A DNA stretch of 64,000 bases, taken from NCBI RefSeq assembly GCF_005877055.1, contig NZ_CP039424.1, forward strand, positions 496,001 through 560,000. The letters are read 5' to 3'. The position numbers and the translations under genes are program-made. Source of the stretch: Citricoccus sp. SGAir0253. Lineage in GTDB: Bacteria; Actinomycetota; Actinomycetes; Actinomycetales; Micrococcaceae. Shown here one piece after another: positions 16,411 through 25,638 of the stretch. A model generated the notes under the pieces. That model saw nothing but the letters and a program-made list of their open reading frames with translations. It made no database searches and was not told the DNA's origin. How positions within the stretch are numbered: position 1 is the stretch's first letter; each line of letters starts with the position of its first letter.

Positions 16411-17619
16411 TCAGGCCTTCGGGACCAGCCGCAGCGGCATGCGCGCGAAGCCGCGCAGCACGTTGTGGATCCACGGGGTGGCCTCGCCGGTCGGCTCGAT
16501 CCGGTCCACGCGCTTGATGAGCGCCTGCAGCATGAGCTCGATCTCGGCGCGGGCGATCGGCTGGCCCACGCACTGGTGCAGGCCCATGCCGAAGGCCACG
16601 TGGCCCGAGGCGTTGCGGTCCAGGTCGAACACGTCCGCGTCCTCGCCCCACTTGCGCGGGTCGCGGTTCGCGGCGCCCATGAACAGCAGGACCTTCGAGT
16701 CCGCGGGGATGTGCACGCCGCCGATCTCGGTGTCCACGGTGCTGGTGCGGTGGAACATCTGGAACGGGGACTCCAGGCGCAGCGCCTCGTCCACCGCGAA
16801 CTTGGCCAGCTGCGGCTTGGCCTTGAGCTTCTCCCACTGCTCGGGGTGCCTGGCCAGGTTGTACAGCGTGTTGCCGATGCCGAAGATCGTGGTGTCCACG
16901 CCGGCGGACAGCAGCGCCCGGACCAGCAGGGTGGCCTGCTGGGGCTCGATCCGGCCCTCGTCCGCGACCTTCCAGATGTCCGCGCCGAGGCCGGTCGTGG
17001 TCAGGTTCTCCCGCTCGCAGCTGTCCATGATCCAGGCGGCCACCCGTTCGCCCTCCTCGAACGCCGCGGCGCGGATGTCGTTGTCCGCGCCGAAGGCGTT
17101 GAAGACCATGGAGCCGTAGGGCAGCAGGTTCTCGCGGCCGTCCGGGCGCAGGCCCACGGCGTCCGGGAACACCTTGAGCGGGTAGCGCTCGGCGATGTCC
17201 ACGATGCCGTCCACCTCACCGCGGCCGGCGACCTCCTCGGCCAGCTCCTCGGCGAAGGGGGCGAACTGCTCGCGCAGCCGGCGCATGGTGGACGGGGAGA
17301 TGACCCCGGCCAGCCCGCGGCGCATCACGGTGTGCGTGGGCGGGTCGGACTCGAGGATCGACGGCGGGCGCCACTCGGCCTCCTTGCGGATGTCCTTGGG
17401 GCCGAGGCCGCCAGACGAGCAGTAGGACTCGAAGTCCGTGAGGATCTCGTAGACCCACTCGTAGCGGGTGACGGCGTAGCAGCCGTGCTTCTCCAGCCAC
17501 ACCACGGGGCCGGCCTCGCGCAGCTTCTCGTGCAGCGGGTAGGGGTTCGAGATGTTCTCGAGGGTGAAGGGGTCGTCCGGCAGGGAGACGACGCTGGTGG
17601 GGGTCATGGTGACGGTCAT
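16411..17619 (-). CDS. Cytochrome P450, CYP199-like (para-substituted benzoate O-demethylase)
   Basis: 402 residues. I-helix AGVDTT (239-244), ExxR at Glu278/Arg281 and heme loop FGMGLHQCVG (Cys350). The sequence tracks the CYP199A enzymes of Rhodopseudomonas along its whole length, including WRPPS (83-87), whose Arg and Ser hold the benzoate carboxylate in that family, VFNAFG, and RALLSAGVDTT (one Ser of the family is Ala235 here). CYP199 proteins O-demethylate 4-methoxybenzoate and relatives. It is the last gene of the SDR-reductase-P450 operon, 22 bases after the reductase. Native substrate inferred: a para-alkoxy or para-alkyl benzoic acid. Confidence 0.88.
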   Translation of the reverse strand: MTVTMTPTSVVSLPDDPFTLENISNPYPLHEKLREAGPVVWLEKHGCYAVTRYEWVYEILTDFESYCSSGGLGPKDIRKEAEWRPPSILESDPPTHTVMRRGLAGVISPSTMRRLREQFAPFAEELAEEVAGRGEVDGIVDIAERYPLKVFPDAVGLRPDGRENLLPYGSMVFNAFGADNDIRAAAFEEGERVAAWIMDSCERENLTTTGLGADIWKVADEGRIEPQQATLLVRALLSAGVDTTIFGIGNTLYNLARHPEQWEKLKAKPQLAKFAVDEALRLESPFQMFHRTSTVDTEIGGVHIPADSKVLLFMGAANRDPRKWGEDADVFDLDRNASGHVAFGMGLHQCVGQPIARAEIELMLQALIKRVDRIEPTGEATPWIHNVLRGFARMPLRLVPKA

Positions 17620-17641
17620 GGCTTCTCCTGGGGGCGTCGGG

Positions 17642-18652
17642 TCAGAGGTCGAGGACGAGCTTGGGGCACCCGGCGGCCGCGCGGGAGACGCAGACCATCA
17701 TCGAGTCGCCGAACTGCTTCTCGTCCTCGCTGAGGATGGCGTCGCGGTGCTCCACCTCGCCGCTGACCACGCGGGTCTCGCAGGTGCCGCAGATCCCGCC
17801 GCGGCACGAGGACAGCACGCGCACGCCCTGTGCCTCCACGGCCTCGAGCACGGTCTGGTCCGGGGTGACGGTGACGGTGGTCCCGGTCTGGGTCAGCTCG
17901 ACCTCGAACGGCTCGCTGCTGGCCCCGGCGTCCAGGCTCGCGGCCACGAAGCGCTCAGTGTGCAGGACCCCGGGCGGCCAGCCCATGCAGTAGTCCTCGA
18001 TCACGCGCAGCAGCGGCTCCGGGCCGCACGCGTACACGAGCATCTTGGCCCGCGGCAGGGCGAGCAGGCCCTCCAGGTCGATCCGGCCCACCTCGTCCTC
18101 GGGGAACAGCAGGATCCGGTCCCCGTACCGCTCCACGAGCTCGTCCGCGAACGCCATGGACGCCCGCGAGCGCCCGCCGTAGGCCAGCCGCCACTCGCGG
18201 CCGGCGGCCTCGGCGGCCTCGATCATCGGCAGGATCGGGGTGATCCCGATGCCCCCGGCGATGAACAGGTACTTGCGCGAGTCCACGAACGGGAAGTTGT
18301 TGCGCGGCCCGTTGATCCGGATGACGTCGCCCTCGGCCAGGCCCTGGTGGACGTACCGCGAGCCGCCGCGGGAGTCCCGGGTGTGCAGCACGGAGACCTG
18401 CAGGCGGCTGCGGTCGGCCAGCGGGGAGCACAGGGAGTACTGGCGCACGTGGTCCGGCAGGACCAAGTCGATGTGGGCCCCGGGCTCCCAGCGGGCGAAC
18501 TCCGAGCCGTCCAGGGTGCGCAGCGTCAGGCGGCGGACGCCCTCGGCGACCTCCTCGAGGCGCTCGACCACGACCTCCTCGAGCTCGTGCCCGAAGCGGC
18601 CGGTGGACCCGGCCTCGGCGGCCAGGGCGGCGGTGTCAGGGATGGTCTGCAT
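17642..18652 (-). CDS. Phthalate-dioxygenase-reductase-type flavin/[2Fe-2S] reductase
   Basis: 336 residues. The flavin-binding RQYSL and GDVIRINGPRNNFPF come first, then the NAD(P) domain (FIAGGIGITPILPM, YACGPEPLL), then a C-terminal plant-type ferredoxin with CRGGICGTC and a fourth Cys in MVCVSRA. This order (FMN, NAD, 2Fe-2S) defines the VanB/PDR family. Here it most likely feeds electrons from NADH to the adjacent P450 in place of separate ferredoxin and reductase, a two-component layout. It lies ten bases after the SDR and 22 before the P450. GGAGG seven bases before the ATG. Confidence 0.88.
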   Translation of the reverse strand: MQTIPDTAALAAEAGSTGRFGHELEEVVVERLEEVAEGVRRLTLRTLDGSEFARWEPGAHIDLVLPDHVRQYSLCSPLADRSRLQVSVLHTRDSRGGSRYVHQGLAEGDVIRINGPRNNFPFVDSRKYLFIAGGIGITPILPMIEAAEAAGREWRLAYGGRSRASMAFADELVERYGDRILLFPEDEVGRIDLEGLLALPRAKMLVYACGPEPLLRVIEDYCMGWPPGVLHTERFVAASLDAGASSEPFEVELTQTGTTVTVTPDQTVLEAVEAQGVRVLSSCRGGICGTCETRVVSGEVEHRDAILSEDEKQFGDSMMVCVSRAAAGCPKLVLDL

Positions 18653-18662
18653 GGTGCCTCCT

Positions 18663-19451
18663 TCAGGCGGCCGCGGGGGCCATCGCGGTGACGGACCGGT
18701 GGGCCAACAGCCCACCGTCCACGCACAGGTCGGTGCCGTTGAGCCAGGCCGCCTGCGGGCTGAGCAGGAAGGCGATCGCCGCGGCGATGTCCTCCGGCTG
18801 GCCGGCGCGGCCGAGCAGGGAGACCGCGCCCTCGACCTTCTCCCGGCCGTGGTCCTTCTTGAAGTCCTCGAGGATGGGCGTCTGCACCGGCCCGGGGCTG
18901 ACCGAGTTGACCCGGACCCGGCCCAGGTTCTCGGACGCCTGCACCTGGGTCAGCCAGCGCACGCACTCCTTGGAGAAGCGGTACGAGTTCCCGGTGACCT
19001 CCGGGTCGTCGGCGACGGCGGCGATCGCCTCGGCGGCGTCGGCGGCCTGGACGAAGCGGGCCACCTCCTCCCGGCGCTCGGCCCAGCCGGCGGCGACGTT
19101 CGAGGCCAGGTTGACGACGGCGCCGCCGTCGGCGATCTTCGGCAGCAGCAGGCGGGTCAGGTCCCGGACGCCGAAGACGTTGACGGCCAGGACCGTCTGC
19201 CACGGCGCGGTGCCGGGCACCCCGGCGATGTTCAACAGGCCGTGGATCCCGGCGGGCACCTGGTCGGCGACGGCGGCCACGCCTTCGGGCGTGGAGAGGT
19301 CGCCCTGGACGAAGGTCCCGGCGAAGGCGTCGGGGATGTTGCGGTCCACGCCGACGACCGTGGCGCTGCCGCGCTGCAGCAGCGCCGCGGTGGCCGCGCC
19401 GATGCCCGAGGCGACGCCGGTGACGACGAGGGTCTGCCCATCGAGGTTCAT
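18663..19451 (-). CDS. Short-chain dehydrogenase (3-alpha-HSD/coniferyl-alcohol-DH-like)
   Basis: 262 residues. TGVASGIG nucleotide-binding motif, NIAG, catalytic Ser in NLASNVAAG and YRFSK (Tyr-x3-Lys). The short, deletion-bearing middle (no region between strand four and the active site, then a 30-residue insertion before YxxxK) resembles the hydroxysteroid / coniferyl-alcohol dehydrogenase branch. Probable role: oxidation of an aromatic alcohol or a cis-diol intermediate. First gene of the operon. The predicted -10 (CATAGT at 19554-19549) gives a leader of about 90 bases and lies 41.5 bp from the shared operator. Confidence 0.83.
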   Translation of the reverse strand: MNLDGQTLVVTGVASGIGAATAALLQRGSATVVGVDRNIPDAFAGTFVQGDLSTPEGVAAVADQVPAGIHGLLNIAGVPGTAPWQTVLAVNVFGVRDLTRLLLPKIADGGAVVNLASNVAAGWAERREEVARFVQAADAAEAIAAVADDPEVTGNSYRFSKECVRWLTQVQASENLGRVRVNSVSPGPVQTPILEDFKKDHGREKVEGAVSLLGRAGQPEDIAAAIAFLLSPQAAWLNGTDLCVDGGLLAHRSVTAMAPAAA

Positions 19452-19548
19452 GGGGATGTCCTTCCGGTGGTCCGCATCCGGTCCTGCGCGAGCCCCGGAG
19501 GGCCGGGATGCGTCAGGATGATGATGCCTGCTGACGGTGTTGCCTCTC

Positions 19549-19554
19549 ACTATG
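19549..19554 (-). promoter_or_regulatory. -10 of the SDR-reductase-P450 operon
   Basis: CATAGT on the minus strand. Its centre is 41.5 bp from the centre of the 19-bp palindrome, the same distance as at the MFS promoter. No -35 is present, as expected for an activator-dependent promoter. Confidence 0.45.
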
Positions 19555-19583
19555 TGGCGTCGAGCACAGGATCTTCAGCCCGG

Positions 19584-19602
19584 CTTTTCACTGGACGAGA
19601 AG
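19584..19602. promoter_or_regulatory. IclR-regulon operator, site 1
   Basis: CTTTTCACTGGACGAGAAG, between the divergent SDR operon and aldehyde dehydrogenase. Consensus of the three sites is CTTNTC-ACTGGAY-GARAAR. Confidence 0.75.
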
Positions 19603-19699
19603 ACGCGTGGGTCGGCCTCCGCCCGCGGCCCAAGCTTGGAGTGGGAACCCGCGCCCGCCCGCCGGTGGGCGCCTCATCCGTCGAGCCCGAGGAGTACGC

Positions 19700-21076
19700 G
19701 TGACCGCCACGTATGAAGTCATAGACCCGGCCACCCTGGAGCCGGTGGGAGACGTGCCCCTGCACCAGCCCGAGGACGTCGAGCGCGCCATCACCGCCGC
19801 CCAGGGGGCCGGGCGGGCGTGGGCCGCGGACCGCGAGGCGCGCCGGGCGGCCCTGCGGTCCGCCGCCGACGCCGTGGACGCGGAGGCCGGGGACCTCGGG
19901 CGCATCCTGTCCCTCGAGCAGGGCAAGGTGCTGGCCGAGGCCGTGCAGGAGTTCCGCGTGGCCGCGGGGCTGCTGCGCCACTACGCGGACCTCGACTGGG
20001 CCCAGTCCGAGACGCTGCCCCCGCGCGACGGTCGGCAGGTCCAGGTCCAGTACGCCCCCGTGGGACTCGTCGGGGCCATCACCCCGTGGAACTTCCCCAT
20101 CTCCCTACTGGCCGTGAAGCTGGCCCCCGCCCTCGTGGCGGGCTGCACCGTGGTCGCCAAGCCCTCGCCGTCCACCCCGATGTCCACCCGGGCCCTGGCC
20201 GAGGTGCTCAACCGCTTCCTCCCGGAGGGCGTGCTGCAGGTCGTCACGGGCCGCGGCGTGCTGTCCCGTGCGCTGTCCGAGATGCCCGGCGTCCGGAAGA
20301 TCTCCTTCACCGGATCCACCGAGATCGGCGCGGCGATCATGGCCCAGGCCGCGCCCACCGTGAAGAAGGTGACCCTCGAGCTCGGCGGCAACGACCCGGC
20401 GATCGTCCTGCCGGACGCCGACCTCGAGGTCACCGCGCAGCGGATCGTGGCCTCCGCCTTCCGCAACGCCGGCCAGGTCTGCATGGCCGTCAAGCGGGTG
20501 TACGCGCCCCGGGAACTGGGCGGCGCGCTGACGGAGGCGCTCGTGGCCGCGGCCGCGGCCCTGCGCGTGGGCCACGGCGTGGCCGAGGGCACCACGATGG
20601 GCCCCATGCACACCAGCGGGCAGCAGCAGCTGGTGAAGGACTACGTGGCCCAGGCGGTCGCGCAGGGCGGGCGCATCGCCCACGGCGGTGAGCACGGCAC
20701 GTCCCTGCCGGGATACTTCCTCGAGCCGACGATCGTGGCCGACGCCCCGGCCGGCTCGGAGCTCGTTTCCTGTGAGCAGTTCGGTGCCGCCCTGCCCGTG
20801 GTCGCCTACGACGACCTGGACGCCACGATCGAGGCCCTCAATGCCCAGGAGTTCGGCCTGGGCGCCTCCGTCTGGTCCCCGGACCTGCACCGCGCCCACG
20901 AGGTCGCCTCCCGGCTGGAGGTCGGCACCGCGTGGATCAACCAGCACACCGTCGTGGAGCTGGACGCGCCCTTCGGCGGCTGGAAGGGCTCGGGCCTGGG
21001 CCGCGAGCGCGGGCGCTGGGGCCTCGAGGAGTACCTCGAGCCGCGCACCGTCAACGCCCGGGCGCACACGGACTGA
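19700..21076 (+). CDS. Aldehyde dehydrogenase of the P450 cluster
   Basis: 458 residues. TPWNFPIS carries the transition-state Asn, ISFTGSTEIG the NAD-binding turn, LELGGND the general-base Glu, NAGQVCMAVKR the nucleophilic Cys, and WINQHTV/PFGGWKGSG the C-terminal signature. Closest in style to the salicylaldehyde/benzaldehyde-type and LuxC-like NAD ALDHs. It would turn an aromatic aldehyde (or formaldehyde-level product of demethylation) into the acid. GAGGAG six bases before GTG 19700 fixes the start; an upstream in-frame ATG at 19607 overlaps the operator region. It is divergent from the SDR operon across site 1 and ends at a 14-bp hairpin. Confidence 0.88.
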   Translation: MTATYEVIDPATLEPVGDVPLHQPEDVERAITAAQGAGRAWAADREARRAALRSAADAVDAEAGDLGRILSLEQGKVLAEAVQEFRVAAGLLRHYADLDWAQSETLPPRDGRQVQVQYAPVGLVGAITPWNFPISLLAVKLAPALVAGCTVVAKPSPSTPMSTRALAEVLNRFLPEGVLQVVTGRGVLSRALSEMPGVRKISFTGSTEIGAAIMAQAAPTVKKVTLELGGNDPAIVLPDADLEVTAQRIVASAFRNAGQVCMAVKRVYAPRELGGALTEALVAAAAALRVGHGVAEGTTMGPMHTSGQQQLVKDYVAQAVAQGGRIAHGGEHGTSLPGYFLEPTIVADAPAGSELVSCEQFGAALPVVAYDDLDATIEALNAQEFGLGASVWSPDLHRAHEVASRLEVGTAWINQHTVVELDAPFGGWKGSGLGRERGRWGLEEYLEPRTVNARAHTD

Positions 21077-21111
21077 GCCACGGCGCCCCGCCCTCGCGGA
21101 GGGCAGGCCGA

Positions 21112-21143
21112 GCGGGCCCCGCACCGGACGGTGCGGGGCCCGC
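21112..21143 (+). terminator. Terminator hairpin of the aldehyde dehydrogenase
   Basis: Perfect 14-bp stem (21112-21125 with 21130-21143), loop GGAC, 36 bases after the stop. Confidence 0.75.
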
Positions 21144-21205
21144 GTGCGTCCGGGCGGCCGGGACACCCGCCCGCTCGCCGCGGGGCCGGGGCACCGCCCG
21201 CGCGC

Positions 21206-21240
21206 AGGACGCCCGGTGGGAGGTTCCCACCGGGCGTCCT
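21206..21240. terminator. Terminator hairpin of the MFS transporter
   Basis: Perfect 16-bp stem (21206-21221 with 21225-21240) and GGT loop. Back to back with the preceding hairpin, so each convergent gene has its own. Confidence 0.78.
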
Positions 21241-21280
21241 GGATGGTGCGCCGCCCTCGGCGGCACGGTCGGCGGACGGC

Positions 21281-22660
21281 TCAGGCCTCGATGCCCAGCC
21301 TGCGCCGCTGGCGCTGCTGGTTGACGAACACGAGGGCCAGCACGCCGAACACCGTCAGCAGCACGGCGGTGACCTGGAAGGCCACCTGGTAGCCGGCGGC
21401 CGGCGTCACGGCCTGGCCGATGAGGAAGCCCCCCACGGCCGGGGCGAAGACGCCACCGGCCGTCAGGACGGCGTTGGCGACGTTCAGGTGCGCCCCGCGC
21501 TGGGAGATCGTCGTCAGCTCACCGACGATCAGGTAGGTGATGGCGAACAGCGCCGGGGCGGTGCCGAAGCCGAGGCTCATCAGGACCAGGGCCAGCACGG
21601 GGGAGGCGACGAGCGTGGAGGCCAGCAGGGACAGCCCGGCCAGGGTGCCCGCCAGGCCGAGGGTCCAGCCGCGCGAGCGCCGGCTCGGCACGCCGCGCTG
21701 GTCCAGGCGCTGGATCATGGCGTTCAGTCCGATCGTCGCCACCACGCCCCACAGGGCGGGCAGGGCGATGAGCGAGCCGGCCTGCTGGCCGGAGAAGCCC
21801 ATGACGTTCTGGAAGTAGGCCGGGCCCCAGGACATGGCCAGGGTGAAGGTCCAGTAGCCGAAGAAGGACGCCAGCACCGCGAAGATCCAGGTCGGGTTCG
21901 CGATGGTGCGGAAGAACGGCACCTTCTCCTCGCTGACGCGCGTCGCGCCGGGATCCATGGCCGCCACCGGGGTGCCCTCGATCTCCCGCTCCACGGCCAG
22001 GGACGTGTAGGGGCCCTCCTTGCCCAGCCACATCCAGACGGCGCACCACACCACGCCGACGACGGCCAGGGCCACGAACGCGGTCCGCCAGCCGTGCTGG
22101 GTGATGACCCAGGCGAGGACCGGGGCGAAGGCCACGATGCCCAGCGTCACCCCGGAGGAGGCGACCGCGGCCGGCGTCGCGCCCTTCTTGGAGGGGAACC
22201 ACTTGTAGATCGCGTGCATCAGGACCGGGGCCAGCGGGCCCTCGCCCGCGCCGAGGGCCAGGCGGCTGACCCACAGGGCGGGCAGGGTGGCGAAGACGAC
22301 CACGGGCATCACGGACAGGGACCAGATCAGGCACATCACGAACAGCAGCGTCTTGGCCCGGATCTTGTTGGCCAGCGGGGCGGCCACGAGCTGCGCGAGC
22401 CCGAAGGTCAGGAACATGGCGCTGGAGACCAGCCCGAACTGCTCGGGGGTGATGCCCAGTTCCTTCATCAGCGGCACGGCCGCGATGCCGAGCACCGCCT
22501 TGTCCGCCCAGCTCAGCATCATGAGGAACAGCAGCAGGCCCGTCAGCATCCACGCGTACCGCGTGCGCCGGCGCGCGGACCAGTGGCGCGGGTCGCCGGT
22601 GTCGACGGGCGTGGGGCTCGGCATGGTGGTCTGCGCCTGTTGGGGTGGGGCCAGGGTCAT
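21281..22660 (-). CDS. MFS transporter, aromatic-acid/anion symporter type
   Basis: 459 residues, twelve hydrophobic segments. LSWADKAVLGIAAVPLMKELG in helix one and the conserved GEGPLAPVLMHAIYKWFPSKKG loop are typical of the anion:cation symporter (ACS)/phthalate-aromatic acid MFS branch. Likely imports the aromatic acid handled by the cluster. GAGGAGA five bases before the ATG. The predicted -10 (TAGATT, 22719-22714) is 41.5 bp from operator site 2, the same geometry as at the SDR promoter. Confidence 0.85.
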   Translation of the reverse strand: MTLAPPQQAQTTMPSPTPVDTGDPRHWSARRRTRYAWMLTGLLLFLMMLSWADKAVLGIAAVPLMKELGITPEQFGLVSSAMFLTFGLAQLVAAPLANKIRAKTLLFVMCLIWSLSVMPVVVFATLPALWVSRLALGAGEGPLAPVLMHAIYKWFPSKKGATPAAVASSGVTLGIVAFAPVLAWVITQHGWRTAFVALAVVGVVWCAVWMWLGKEGPYTSLAVEREIEGTPVAAMDPGATRVSEEKVPFFRTIANPTWIFAVLASFFGYWTFTLAMSWGPAYFQNVMGFSGQQAGSLIALPALWGVVATIGLNAMIQRLDQRGVPSRRSRGWTLGLAGTLAGLSLLASTLVASPVLALVLMSLGFGTAPALFAITYLIVGELTTISQRGAHLNVANAVLTAGGVFAPAVGGFLIGQAVTPAAGYQVAFQVTAVLLTVFGVLALVFVNQQRQRRRLGIEA

Positions 22661-22713
22661 CTGATTCTCCTCTGGGGGGACCGTGGGGGTCGGCGGGGGA
22701 ATGTCTGGAGGCG

Positions 22714-22719
22714 AATCTA
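22714..22719 (-). promoter_or_regulatory. -10 of the MFS transporter gene
   Basis: TAGATT on the minus strand, 41.5 bp centre to centre from the 19-bp palindrome at 22749-22767. Start site near 22707. Confidence 0.5.
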
Positions 22720-22748
22720 GGAGCGTGTGAACTGGCGCACATAGGTGG

Positions 22749-22767
22749 CTTTTCGTCCAGTGAGAAG
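22749..22767. promoter_or_regulatory. IclR-regulon operator, site 2
   Basis: Minus strand reads CTTCTCACTGGACGAAAAG. Flanking AGGTGGC/GCCACCT extends the dyad. Serves the divergent MFS and metallo-hydrolase genes. A weak CACAGT hexamer lies at the same 41.5-bp distance on the plus side (22797-22802). Confidence 0.75.
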
Positions 22768-22836
22768 GCCACCTGAGGCGGCGGCAGATGGTCGGGCACA
22801 GTGTGGGGGAACCACTGACCCACGGAAGGCCCCCAC

Positions 22837-23850
22837 ATGGACCACCGCACCACCACCGAGCAGCACGCCGAGGACCGGGCCTCGGGCCGCGCCGGGCTGA
22901 AGGTCGTCACCCTGGGCACGGCGGCCGGACCCGCCATCCGCTCGGAGTGCGCCGGCATCGCCACGGCGATCGTCGTCGACGGGGCGTACTACCTGGTGGA
23001 CTTCGGCTTGGGCGTCACCCGGGCGGCCCACGAGGCGGGCCTGCGCGGCCAGGACCTCCGCGCGTGCTTCGTGACCCACCTGCACTCGGACCACGTGGCC
23101 GAGCTGCCCGCGTACCTGCTGTGGAACTGGGGCCTGCCCGTGCAGGGCTTCACCGAGCCCGTGCCGATCATCGGGCCCGGCTCCGCGGACCCGGCGGCGG
23201 GCGCCGTGGGGCTGGCGGGCCTGGTGGACCACGTCCTGCGCGGGTACTCCTACGACATCGACGTGCGCATCGTCGACGAGGGCCGCCCCCCGCTGTACGA
23301 CCTCGTCACGGTGGAGGAGATCGCCCTGCCGGAGGCCGCCGCGGGCGCCTCGGGGGAGTCCACCCCCGCCATGGACCCGTTCGTGGTGTACGCTGACGAG
23401 CGGGTGCGGGTCAGCGCGATCCTGGTGGAGCACCCGCCGATCTTCCCCGCGTTCGCCTTCCGCTTCGACACCGCCCACGGCTCCGTGGTGGTCTCCGGGG
23501 ACACCACCGAGTGCCAGAACATGGTGCGGATCGCCGCCGGCACCGACCTGCTCGTGCACGAGAGCGTCTACCTGGACTTCTACCGCGCCCGGGACTTCGG
23601 CCCGGAGTTCCTCAACCACCAGCTGATCTCCCACACCACCCCGGAGGGGGTCGGCCGGGTGGCCACCCGGGCCGGGGCCGGGCGCGTGGTGCTCTCGCAC
23701 CTGGCCGGCGTCGCGACGGACGAGCAGTGGGCCGCGGGCGTGGCGGCCGAGTACGACGGGCCCGTCAACGTCGCCCGGCCGGGGACCGTCTTCGAGGTCA
23801 CCGGGACCCGGGCGGGAACGGGAGCGGCCGTCGTCGGGACGCCGGCCTGA
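22837..23850 (+). CDS. Metallo-beta-lactamase-fold hydrolase (RNase Z / arylsulfatase-like)
   Basis: 337 residues. THLHSDHVAELP (about residue 86) is the di-zinc signature. VVSGDTTEC supplies the bridging aspartate, VHESVY and VVLSHLAG the remaining ligands. The overall pattern (LGTAAGPA..., HTTPEGVGRVA) is that of the RNase Z/AtsA-like branch used in small-molecule catabolism, not antibiotic resistance. Expected to open an ester, lactone or thioester made by the cluster, but the substrate is unknown. GGAAGG seven bases before the ATG. Confidence 0.85.
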   Translation: MDHRTTTEQHAEDRASGRAGLKVVTLGTAAGPAIRSECAGIATAIVVDGAYYLVDFGLGVTRAAHEAGLRGQDLRACFVTHLHSDHVAELPAYLLWNWGLPVQGFTEPVPIIGPGSADPAAGAVGLAGLVDHVLRGYSYDIDVRIVDEGRPPLYDLVTVEEIALPEAAAGASGESTPAMDPFVVYADERVRVSAILVEHPPIFPAFAFRFDTAHGSVVVSGDTTECQNMVRIAAGTDLLVHESVYLDFYRARDFGPEFLNHQLISHTTPEGVGRVATRAGAGRVVLSHLAGVATDEQWAAGVAAEYDGPVNVARPGTVFEVTGTRAGTGAAVVGTPA

Positions 23851-23942
23851 GGTGACGAGCCCGGCCCGGCCGCTGCGGCCCGGACGGGGGAGGGCCGCCG
23901 TCGGGGCGACCGCCCGGGCCGCGCCGGCCGCGTCCGCCGCCC

Positions 23943-24701
23943 CTAGCCGGCGCGCGTCAGGGACCGGGAGATCGCGGCCGAGGCGACCTGCAGGGCCGGC
24001 ACGATCCGCTGGAAGTCCGTGATCCGCGCCAGGCTGACGATGCCCAGCGCCGCGATGACCTCGCCCTCCGCGCCGCGGATGGGGACGGCCAGGCCGTAGG
24101 CGCCGGAGGAGTGCTCGCCCTCCGTGGTGGCGTAGCCGCGCTCGCGCACCAGCTCCAGTTCCGCCTCGAGCCGCGGGCGGTCGGCGATGCTGTACCGGGT
24201 CTCCGGGGTCAGTCGCGCGGCGGCCGCCTCCACCAGCTCCGCGGGGCCGTGGGCCAGGAGGACCTTCCCGGCGGCGCTGGTGTGCAGGGGCAGCCGGTCC
24301 CCGGGGCGGGCGATCGGCGAGCCCACGCGCGTGCCCGCGATCCGGTCCAGCAGCAGCGCCTCCGTGCCGTCCAGGACGAAGAGGTTGACGATCTGGCGGG
24401 TGGCGAAGAGGACGTCCTGCATGTAGGGCGCGGCCGTCTGGCGCAGGCCGCGCTCGAGCGGGGCGAGCAGGCCCAGCTGGGCGAGGCGGGGGCCGATCGT
24501 GTAGGTGCCGTCCTCGCCGCGGGCGACGGCCCCCCACTCGGCGAGGTCACGCAGCAGGCGGTAGCAGGTGGGCACGGGCATCCCGGCGCGGCGGGCGATC
24601 TGGGACAGGTTCTGCCGGACGTGCTGGGTGTCGAAGGTCCCCAGGAGGTCGAGGGCCCGCGACGTCACCGACCGTCCCGGTGCGTGCGCGTTGCCGGCCA
24701 C
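23943..24701 (-). CDS. IclR-family regulator of the P450 cluster
   Basis: 252 residues. N-terminal winged helix (13-75) with NLSQIARRAGMPVPTCYRLLRDL, then the IclR effector domain (80-250) with LHTSAAGKVLLAH and the C-terminal LGIVSLA. IclR proteins of this kind (PcaU/PobR group) bind aromatic acids and often activate catabolic promoters while repressing themselves. The GTG start at 24701 lies nine bases downstream of operator site 3, which sits between its predicted -10 (TAGACT, 24743-24738) and the start codon, consistent with autorepression. Confidence 0.9.
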   Translation of the reverse strand: MAGNAHAPGRSVTSRALDLLGTFDTQHVRQNLSQIARRAGMPVPTCYRLLRDLAEWGAVARGEDGTYTIGPRLAQLGLLAPLERGLRQTAAPYMQDVLFATRQIVNLFVLDGTEALLLDRIAGTRVGSPIARPGDRLPLHTSAAGKVLLAHGPAELVEAAAARLTPETRYSIADRPRLEAELELVRERGYATTEGEHSSGAYGLAVPIRGAEGEVIAALGIVSLARITDFQRIVPALQVASAAISRSLTRAG

Positions 24702-24709
24702 GGAACCGC

Positions 24710-24728
24710 CTTGTCACTGGATGAAAAA
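24710..24728. promoter_or_regulatory. IclR-regulon operator, site 3
   Basis: CTTGTCACTGGATGAAAAA, between the IclR gene and the divergent BASS transporter. More divergent than sites 1 and 2, and placed downstream of the IclR -10 box. Confidence 0.7.
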
Positions 24729-24759
24729 TACGCGACCAGTCTACGACCCGGAGACCAGA

Positions 24760-25638
24760 ATGACCCCCATGGACCTCCAGGCGATCACCGACTCCGTGGG
24801 CGCCGTGGCCGTCCCCCTGTTCGCCGTGGCCAGCATGGCCGCCGTCGGGCTCGGGCAGACCGTGCAGGAGTTCCTCGCCCCGCTGCGCAGTGCCAGGCTG
24901 CTGCTCTCCGGCGCCGTGGCCAACTTCCTGGTGGCCCCGGCCGTGGCCCTGGCCCTGACGGCCCTGCTGCCGATTCCCGCGGACGCGCGCACCGGGCTGA
25001 TGGTGCTGGCCTGCGCCGCCGGGGCGCCCTTCGCCCTCAAGCTCACCGGCCTGGCCCGCGGCCACATGCCCTCCGCCTCGGCCCTGCTGGCCGTGCTGCT
25101 CGTGGCCACCACGCTGTTCATGCCCGTGGTCCTGCCCCTGCTGCTGCCCGGGGCGGAGGTCTCGGCCGCCAGCATCGCCGCCGTCCTGGTGCCCACCATG
25201 CTGCTGCCCCTCGGCGCGGCCATCGCCGTGCGGCAGTTCCGGCCCGGCCTGGCCGCCCGGCTGCAGGGACCCGTGCGGCGATTGAGCCTCTGGTCCATGC
25301 TCGTGATGCTCGCCAACCAGTTCCTCGCCGACCACCGGGAACTCGCGGGGCTGCTCGGCACCGGCACGGTGCTGGCGATCGTCCTGTTCACCCTGGCCAA
25401 CCTCGGGGCCGGGTGGGCGCTCGGGGCGATGACGCCCGGCAGTGGGTCCCTCGTCGGGATCTCCGCCTCGCAGCGGAACATGGGCGTGGCCACGCTCGTG
25501 GCGGTGGCGAACTTCGGGGACTCCTCCGTGGTGGTCACCGTCGTGCTGGCCGGCTTCCTCGCGCTCGTGCTGCTGCTGCCGCTGACCTGGCTCGCCGGGC
25601 GCAGGTGGGGCGGCCGCGCCGCCGTGCCCGCGGGCTGA
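24760..25638 (+). CDS. Bile-acid:sodium-symporter-family (BASS) transporter
   Basis: 292 residues with about nine or ten hydrophobic segments and the inverted-repeat layout of BASS proteins. The unwound-helix motifs read CAAGAPFALKLTGLARGH and SASQRNMGVATLVA, matching the family's two crossing helices. Probably sodium-coupled movement of an organic anion. It shares operator site 3 with the IclR gene, so it is likely a second carrier of the aromatic-acid regulon. GGAG six bases before ATG 24760 sets the start. Confidence 0.78.
   Translation: MTPMDLQAITDSVGAVAVPLFAVASMAAVGLGQTVQEFLAPLRSARLLLSGAVANFLVAPAVALALTALLPIPADARTGLMVLACAAGAPFALKLTGLARGHMPSASALLAVLLVATTLFMPVVLPLLLPGAEVSAASIAAVLVPTMLLPLGAAIAVRQFRPGLAARLQGPVRRLSLWSMLVMLANQFLADHRELAGLLGTGTVLAIVLFTLANLGAGWALGAMTPGSGSLVGISASQRNMGVATLVAVANFGDSSVVVTVVLAGFLALVLLLPLTWLAGRRWGGRAAVPAG

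Follow-up and report, generated by a model that had tools for sequence, protein, structure and literature searches.

PcaU and PobR of Acinetobacter baylyi are activators that repress themselves. Regulators of the IclR family generally control their own gene plus one or two adjacent operons, and in one subgroup of their group 1 operators, WTT-11-AAW, the consensus is WTTYCRYW3RYGRAAW (Suvorova and Gelfand, 2021; PMC8222616). HbaR1 and VanR1 of Rhodococcus opacus PD630 are IclR-type activators of 4-hydroxybenzoate and vanillate genes (PMC9582017), and GenR of Corynebacterium glutamicum is listed with the operator ATTCC-N7(5)-GGAAT (Table 1, PMC8222616). PbdA and PbdB of Rhodococcus jostii RHA1 are a CYP199A-type cytochrome P450 and its cognate reductase for para-methoxybenzoates; the word "regulator" is absent from the main text describing them (PMC11530827). 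Our literature search found no paper on an IclR-type regulator of 4-methoxybenzoate or CYP199A demethylation and none naming IclR together with 4-methoxybenzoate, and one review (PMC7356249) contains both words, CYP199 and IclR. Here, we describe a 19-bp motif, CTTNTCACTGGAYGARAAR, that stands at three divergent promoters of a gene cluster with a CYP199A-like P450 in Citricoccus sp. SGAir0253, in a stretch of 64,000 nucleotides (contig NZ_CP039424.1, positions 496,001 to 560,000; hereafter the window), and that is very probably the switch of the neighboring IclR-type regulator.

How does this locus compare with the described systems? Set against the published consensus, the window sites have the half-sites and the spacing of the WTT-11-AAW class; they differ from it in having mostly TGG or CCA instead of the central W3 and in the third base of the half-site, which varies in the genus (PMC8222616). 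The form that the operator takes in Arthrobacter and Glutamicibacter, TTTCC-N7-GGAAA, has nearly the same half-sites as that of GenR around a 7-bp center, but GenR regulates gentisate genes, whereas a cluster of P450, short-chain dehydrogenase/reductase (SDR) and aldehyde dehydrogenase (ALDH) genes is concerned here. PcaR/PcaU/PobR is the best NCBIfam model for the window regulator, at a score below cut-off; the A. baylyi proteins are tabulated with operators that have half-sites of the TCGA/CCGA type and need a third box (Table 1, PMC8222616). HbaR1 and VanR1 are comparable in that these IclR-type activators serve peripheral pathways leading to protocatechuate; the HbaR1 gene precedes pobA and is read in the same direction, as is a second IclR gene of the present genome (PMC9582017). 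PbdA/PbdB is the closest characterized enzyme pair found, the substrate in the window being predicted from the family (PMC11530827). A PobR described in PMC12285266 was set aside as a comparison, as it is AraC-type. A preliminary description of this DNA took the motif to be undescribed, which does not hold for this kind of motif: a published IclR class is similar (PMC8222616), and other IclR genes, of the PobR-like/pobA and hutG types, are accompanied by palindromes that are nearly identical. Neither Arthrobacter nor the stem Micrococc- occurs in the main text of PMC8222616, and in the portion covered of a Kocuria transcriptome paper (PMC12343579) P450 is not mentioned and nothing is said on the cluster.

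Copies of the Motif in the Window and the Genome

The preliminary description had placed the motif at three divergent promoters, and it is present there in exact form:

19584..19602, plus strand: predicted operator site 1, CTTTTCACTGGACGAGAAG, between the SDR and ALDH genes
22749..22767, minus strand: predicted operator site 2, CTTCTCACTGGACGAAAAG, between a gene for a transporter of the major facilitator superfamily (MFS) and one for a metallo-beta-lactamase-fold hydrolase (MBL)
24710..24728, plus strand: predicted operator site 3, CTTGTCACTGGATGAAAAA, between iclR and a symporter gene; its center lies 18 bp before the iclR start codon

No additional match with up to three mismatches exists in the window, and 100 dinucleotide shuffles of the window gave no match. 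Across the host genome (G000; 3.56 Mb) a scan returned the same three exact copies, one copy with two mismatches (C1:356889, ATTCTCACTGGATGAGAAT) and four with three mismatches; since a reversed-pattern control also gave eight matches at up to three mismatches, the four weakest were disregarded and only the first four counted. The copy at C1:356889 is a near-perfect palindrome between a second IclR gene and pobA. The preliminary description had proposed such a scan, with many unrelated copies as the outcome that would speak against it; the copies are few, three exact and one close.

A looser palindrome found 13 matches in the genome versus three in its reversed control, adding one mismatch-free match (C1:3183264, with no gene pair assigned) and eight with two mismatches. 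A genome-wide regulon is not supported. One of the eight, TTTCCACTCAGTGGAAC at G000:C1:2959959, is flanked by a third IclR gene and a different P450 gene (positions 641-1435 and about 1662-2981 of locus L084) and probably belongs to the third IclR, as it adjoins that gene. A weaker palindrome, GCTTTCACTGGGTGAAGAC, about 2.5 kb to the left of the window (G000:C1:493519; L093:9520), has no assigned target.

Conservation of the Predicted Operator in Relatives

A search of named genomes returned 22 loci, of which 21 hold the cluster in whole or in part; those 21, four loci fetched afterwards (L086-L089) and the window make up the 26 loci compared. L030 (29% identity, without the cluster) was excluded, L090 and L091, on contigs equal in length to those of L016 and L018, repeat the upstream sequences of these two and were not counted as new, and L092, a second copy in genome G133, was used for the iclR promoter only. 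An operator was scored where a palindrome matching at least 15/17 positions occurs within 250 bp upstream of a gene. The preliminary description had named the lack of conservation upstream of orthologs as a point that would tell against it; the operator is present upstream of SDR in 23/23 and ALDH in 23/23 loci, and of the reductase gene in 16/22; in the six without it (the window, L010, and four loci of Kocuria) reductase follows SDR. As a background, 141 of 4000 random 265-bp segments of the same loci, true sites included, reach this score.

The operators of the orthologs are a diverging palindrome that tends to TTTCC-N7-GGAAA: CTTNTCACTGGAYGARAAR, the form within the genus, gives way in relatives from Glutamicibacter and Arthrobacter to sequences close to TTTCCAYTGGRTGGAAA. 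The sequence of site 2 is identical in L009 and L010, a related palindrome is found in four Kocuria loci, and a weaker one (14/17) in L015-L018. The genus is represented in the sample by eight genomes, and the three of them with an ortholog of the IclR regulator (E<=1e-50) are the same three that have the motif. Such an ortholog occurs in 25 of the 149 genomes of the whole sample, and the 17-bp core with at most one mismatch in 13; both occur together in five (G000, G119, G133, G094, and G125), the core match lying upstream of a different IclR gene in G094 (L038) and at pobA in G125 (L041). No IclR gene could be tied to the core matches in L031, L035, L036, L040, and L042, that in L036 being inside a predicted coding frame. 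The second copy in G133 (L092, on contig C194) is a Kocuria-like symporter-iclR-MBL-MFS arrangement with 61-82% identity to that of the window and operators of its own, and may reflect either transfer or contamination of a draft genome.

Conserved Geometry of the Predicted Promoters

Outside the operator, conservation is strongest at +39 to +45 from its center, followed by +17 and +19 with +51 close, and these peaks are read as a -10 and a -35 box with a 17-bp spacer. A -10-like NANNNT hexamer is centered 40.5 or 41.5 bp from the operator center in 72/84 promoters (SDR 20/23, ALDH 18/23, MFS 11/11, MBL 11/11, and reductase 12/16) and at 39.5-42.5 bp in 83/84, the sole exception being the ALDH promoter of L024, for which the operator pick may be wrong; other neighboring pairs of offsets have it in 6% on average and 14% at most. 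Of the promoters, 50% carry the TG of a TTG-type -35 at +17/+18, compared with 8% on average, which gives the 17-bp spacer. When 34 clade-promoters, those of the later clade (L086-L089) excluded, were subjected to a circular-shift test, the top pair was 40.5/41.5 and its peak was reached in 0/5000 shifts, the clades sharing ancestry and so not being independent trials. When promoters were taken singly, the peak was reached in 0 (SDR), 0 (reductase), 11 (MFS), 44 (MBL), and 91 (ALDH) of 5000 shifts, ALDH being the weakest; the top pair was 40.5/41.5 for MBL, and 41.5/42.5 and 40.5/41.5 were tied for MFS.

The preliminary description had placed four hexamers of the window exactly 41.5 bp from the operator centers, and the coordinates agree:

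19549..19554, minus strand: -10-like CATAGT of SDR-reductase-P450, 41.5 bp from site 1; the same hexamer in L010-L014, one base closer in L014
19632..19637, plus strand: weak -10-like AAGCTT of ALDH, 41.5 bp from site 1; the alternative CAAGCT is one base closer
22714..22719, minus strand: -10-like TAGATT of MFS, 41.5 bp from site 2
22797..22802, plus strand: -10-like CACAGT of MBL, 41.5 bp from site 2

At MFS, TAGATT, TACATT, or TACAGT stands at 41.5 bp in 11/11 promoters having an operator, and at MBL NANNNT is at this very distance in 9/11. The clade examined afterwards, L086-L089, agrees: the operator is found at SDR and ALDH in 4/4 loci and at reductase in the 3/3 holding that gene. Its SDR hexamers (GACAGT, AAGAGT, AAGACT, and AAGAGT) are all at 41.5 bp, its ALDH promoters have TTGTCN -35-like boxes followed by GACGCT or CACGCT at 41.5 or 42.5 bp, and its reductase hexamers are TATCGT at 41.5, TAAGGT at 42.5 and TATCGT at 42.5 bp. 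The operator thus lies upstream of the predicted core promoters, as would be expected of an IclR activator. Since the 41.5 bp end at the center of the -10 box, the operator center is predicted to lie near -51 from the transcription start; class-II activation at -41.5 from the start is rejected, as this distance runs to the -10 box.

Between the operator and the -10 box of the MFS promoter (22726-22741, minus strand) a palindrome, TGTGC-N6-TCACA, was also spotted by eye. It resembles the CRP/GlxR consensus, is conserved within the genus and in Kocuria, with a partial form, TGTTG-N6-TCACA, in L015-L018, and possibly points to carbon-catabolite control.

Site 3, the iclR Promoter and the Symporter Gene

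The iclR gene was said to have site 3 downstream of its own -10 box, and this arrangement is conserved:

24738..24743, minus strand: -10-like TAGACT of iclR, upstream of site 3

In the window and in 7/7 loci compared (L009-L014 and L092), a box of the form TAGA(C/G)T or TACACT starts 39-42 bp before the iclR start codon. Site 3 would span roughly +4 to +22 of the predicted iclR transcript, a blocking position, as would be expected of an autorepressor. Autorepression is not general, because iclR in L086-L089 is without an operator of its own. The preliminary reading of a self-repressing IclR activator therefore stands in its activator geometry at SDR, ALDH, MFS, and MBL and in the blocking position at iclR, and falls short in that the autorepression does not extend to L086-L089.

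On the other side of site 3, the operator is present in 7/7 loci holding the gene for a symporter of the bile-acid:sodium-symporter (BASS) family, its center lying 41-42 bp before the start codon. A symporter promoter was sought at site 3 and not found, the start codon occupying the place expected for the -10 box.

Proposed Mechanism and Alternative Explanations

The model for this genome is as follows: the IclR protein (23943-24701) would bind all three sites. At the SDR-reductase-P450, ALDH, MFS, and MBL promoters it would bind just upstream of the -35 box, with the operator center at about -51, and it would activate sigma-70-type transcription in response to a compound of the pathway; 4-methoxybenzoate, 4-hydroxybenzoate, or a similar para-substituted benzoate is the most likely effector. 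How would a single site switch two genes? As the -10 boxes are equidistant on either side of the palindrome, one dimer site would serve both divergent promoters. At iclR the bound protein would repress its own gene, because site 3 covers the transcript start, and the regulator would work much like the PcaU/PobR activators. Activation is suggested by the operator position, and the full model, activation of the catabolic promoters together with repression of the regulator's own gene, appears likely to us.

Several observations weigh against this model. The scoring pattern was written after L009-L029 were known, and related loci are not independent. At the same threshold the operator is found upstream of iclR in only 12/26 loci, MFS in 7/24, and MBL in 7/25 (11 each at 14/17 or better), and many of the MFS and MBL misses arise because MFS follows P450 and MBL follows ALDH in those loci. 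In L086-L089 there is no operator at MFS (0/3), MBL (0/4), or iclR (0/4). Of the 25 genomes with an ortholog 20 have no core match, and eight of the 13 with a core match have no ortholog; outside the genus, the strict motif does not follow the IclR regulator, only its diverged form does. Taken singly, SDR and reductase have 39.5/40.5 as their top pair, and ALDH peaks at 45.5/46.5 with 40.5/41.5 second. The -35 boxes of the window look poor by eye.

Could the second, pobA-linked IclR also, or instead, bind the sites, so that the P450 cluster and the pobA-pca genes form one cross-wired regulon? Its gene lies at C1:355861-356766, and pcaHG, pcaB-like, and pcaF-like genes come after pobA. The pobA site is the only other close copy of the motif in the genome, P-T-x-Y-R is common to the helix-turn-helix (HTH) domains of both regulators, and the geometry recurs at five pobA promoters that have a similar palindrome (L004, L019, L024, L041, and L043), with NANNNT at 39.5-41.5 bp in 5/5. 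Yet identity between the two regulators is as low as 35% overall and 36% in the HTH, and the upstream region of pobA in L011, left out of these five, has no palindrome of 13 or more. Moreover, the pobA sites in L024, L041, and L043 adjoin a relative of this second IclR, which suggests a separate neighboring site for each regulator. Cross-binding between the two is possible, and a single cross-wired regulon we regard as unlikely, though it is the best placed of the alternatives to the model of a self-repressing activator.

Similar palindromes occur beside yet another IclR gene. In L037-L039 (genus g22) those of the ATTCTCACTGNRCGAGAA type lie upstream of an IclR gene, whose frame is whole in L038 and L039 and split over two frames in L037; behind this gene, L037 and L039 have a hutG-like one. 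These are probably regulators of histidine use with a near-identical predicted operator. They serve as a contrast, having no NANNNT at 39.5-42.5 bp in any of the six directions.

If the IclR protein simply repressed every one of its promoters until an aromatic effector released it, acting from the upstream site through looping or polymerase contact, this would agree with the general view of IclR-type proteins as repressors, to which two proteins of R. opacus, regulators of the catechol and protocatechuate branches, conform (PMC9582017), and with the blocking position of site 3. The operators of the enzyme and transporter genes, however, do not reach into the -35/-10 region: they end about 6 bp before the -35, at a conserved distance, which makes a plain repressor improbable. 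The possibility of a motif repeated by chance or conserved without a regulatory role, to which the mere three exact copies in the window might point, can practically be dismissed, a chance origin being rejected by the empty shuffles, by the conservation coupled to the spacing of the -10-like boxes and by the agreement of the later clade.

Genes of the Cluster

The genes flanking the three sites are as follows:

16411..17619, minus strand: cytochrome P450, CYP199A-like (para-methoxybenzoate O-demethylase type), matching CYP199A4 (4dnz, E 3e-121)
17642..18652, minus strand: FAD/NAD reductase with a C-terminal 2Fe-2S domain, probable P450 partner, by family profile matches
18663..19451, minus strand: SDR of the coniferyl-alcohol-dehydrogenase type (NF009092, 266 bits versus a cut-off of 242)
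19700..21076, plus strand: ALDH, by family profile matches
21281..22660, minus strand: MFS transporter, by family profile matches
22837..23850, plus strand: MBL, RNase Z/arylsulfatase-like
23943..24701, minus strand: IclR-family regulator of 252 amino acids, with PcaR/PcaU/PobR as best NCBIfam match, below cut-off
24760..25638, plus strand: BASS permease (PF01758 above cut-off; TIGR00841 weak, below cut-off)

The G+C content of the window is 74.9%. By the IclR regulator, the closest named genomes are a Citricoccus and a Micrococcus metagenome-assembled genome (88% best-segment identity), followed by Kocuria (75-76%). The regulator has both domains of its family above cut-off, the N-terminal HTH (PF09339, E 3e-11) and the C-terminal effector domain (PF01614, E 4e-32), at the size of about 250 amino acids, and is assigned to the IclR family by sequence. 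Its score against TIGR02431 (PcaR/PcaU/PobR) is 140.5 bits with a cut-off of 284.75, and because its best match is below cut-off it is regarded as related to this group and not counted as a member. The P450 is of the CYP199A type by sequence relationship: 18 PDB sequences match at E 6e-124 to 2e-115, the named ones being CYP199A4 or CYP199, and the next match is at 8e-52.

The SDR, reductase, and P450 genes are read as a single operon on the minus strand, and the genes of the cluster look suited to the breakdown of methoxylated benzoates. A plausible route, with enzyme steps assigned from family membership, leads from 4-methoxybenzoate through the P450 to 4-hydroxybenzoate and through PobA to protocatechuate. 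The MBL gene (22837-23850) is present in 25/26 loci, though it has no obvious part in aromatic breakdown.

Significance

The analysis proposes a regulator, an operator and promoters for a CYP199A-type demethylase cluster across related genera. As a tentative generalization, which may well prove too wide, IclR activators of the Micrococcaceae would share a mirrored module (operator, about 6 bp, -35, 17 bp, -10) by which one regulator switches two divergent promoters; the same geometry would serve another IclR at pobA, and operators so nearly alike would permit cross-talk within a network that funnels aromatic compounds. The arrangement offers candidate inducible two-sided promoters for work on lignin aromatics and, for IclR activators, a sharp geometric rule.

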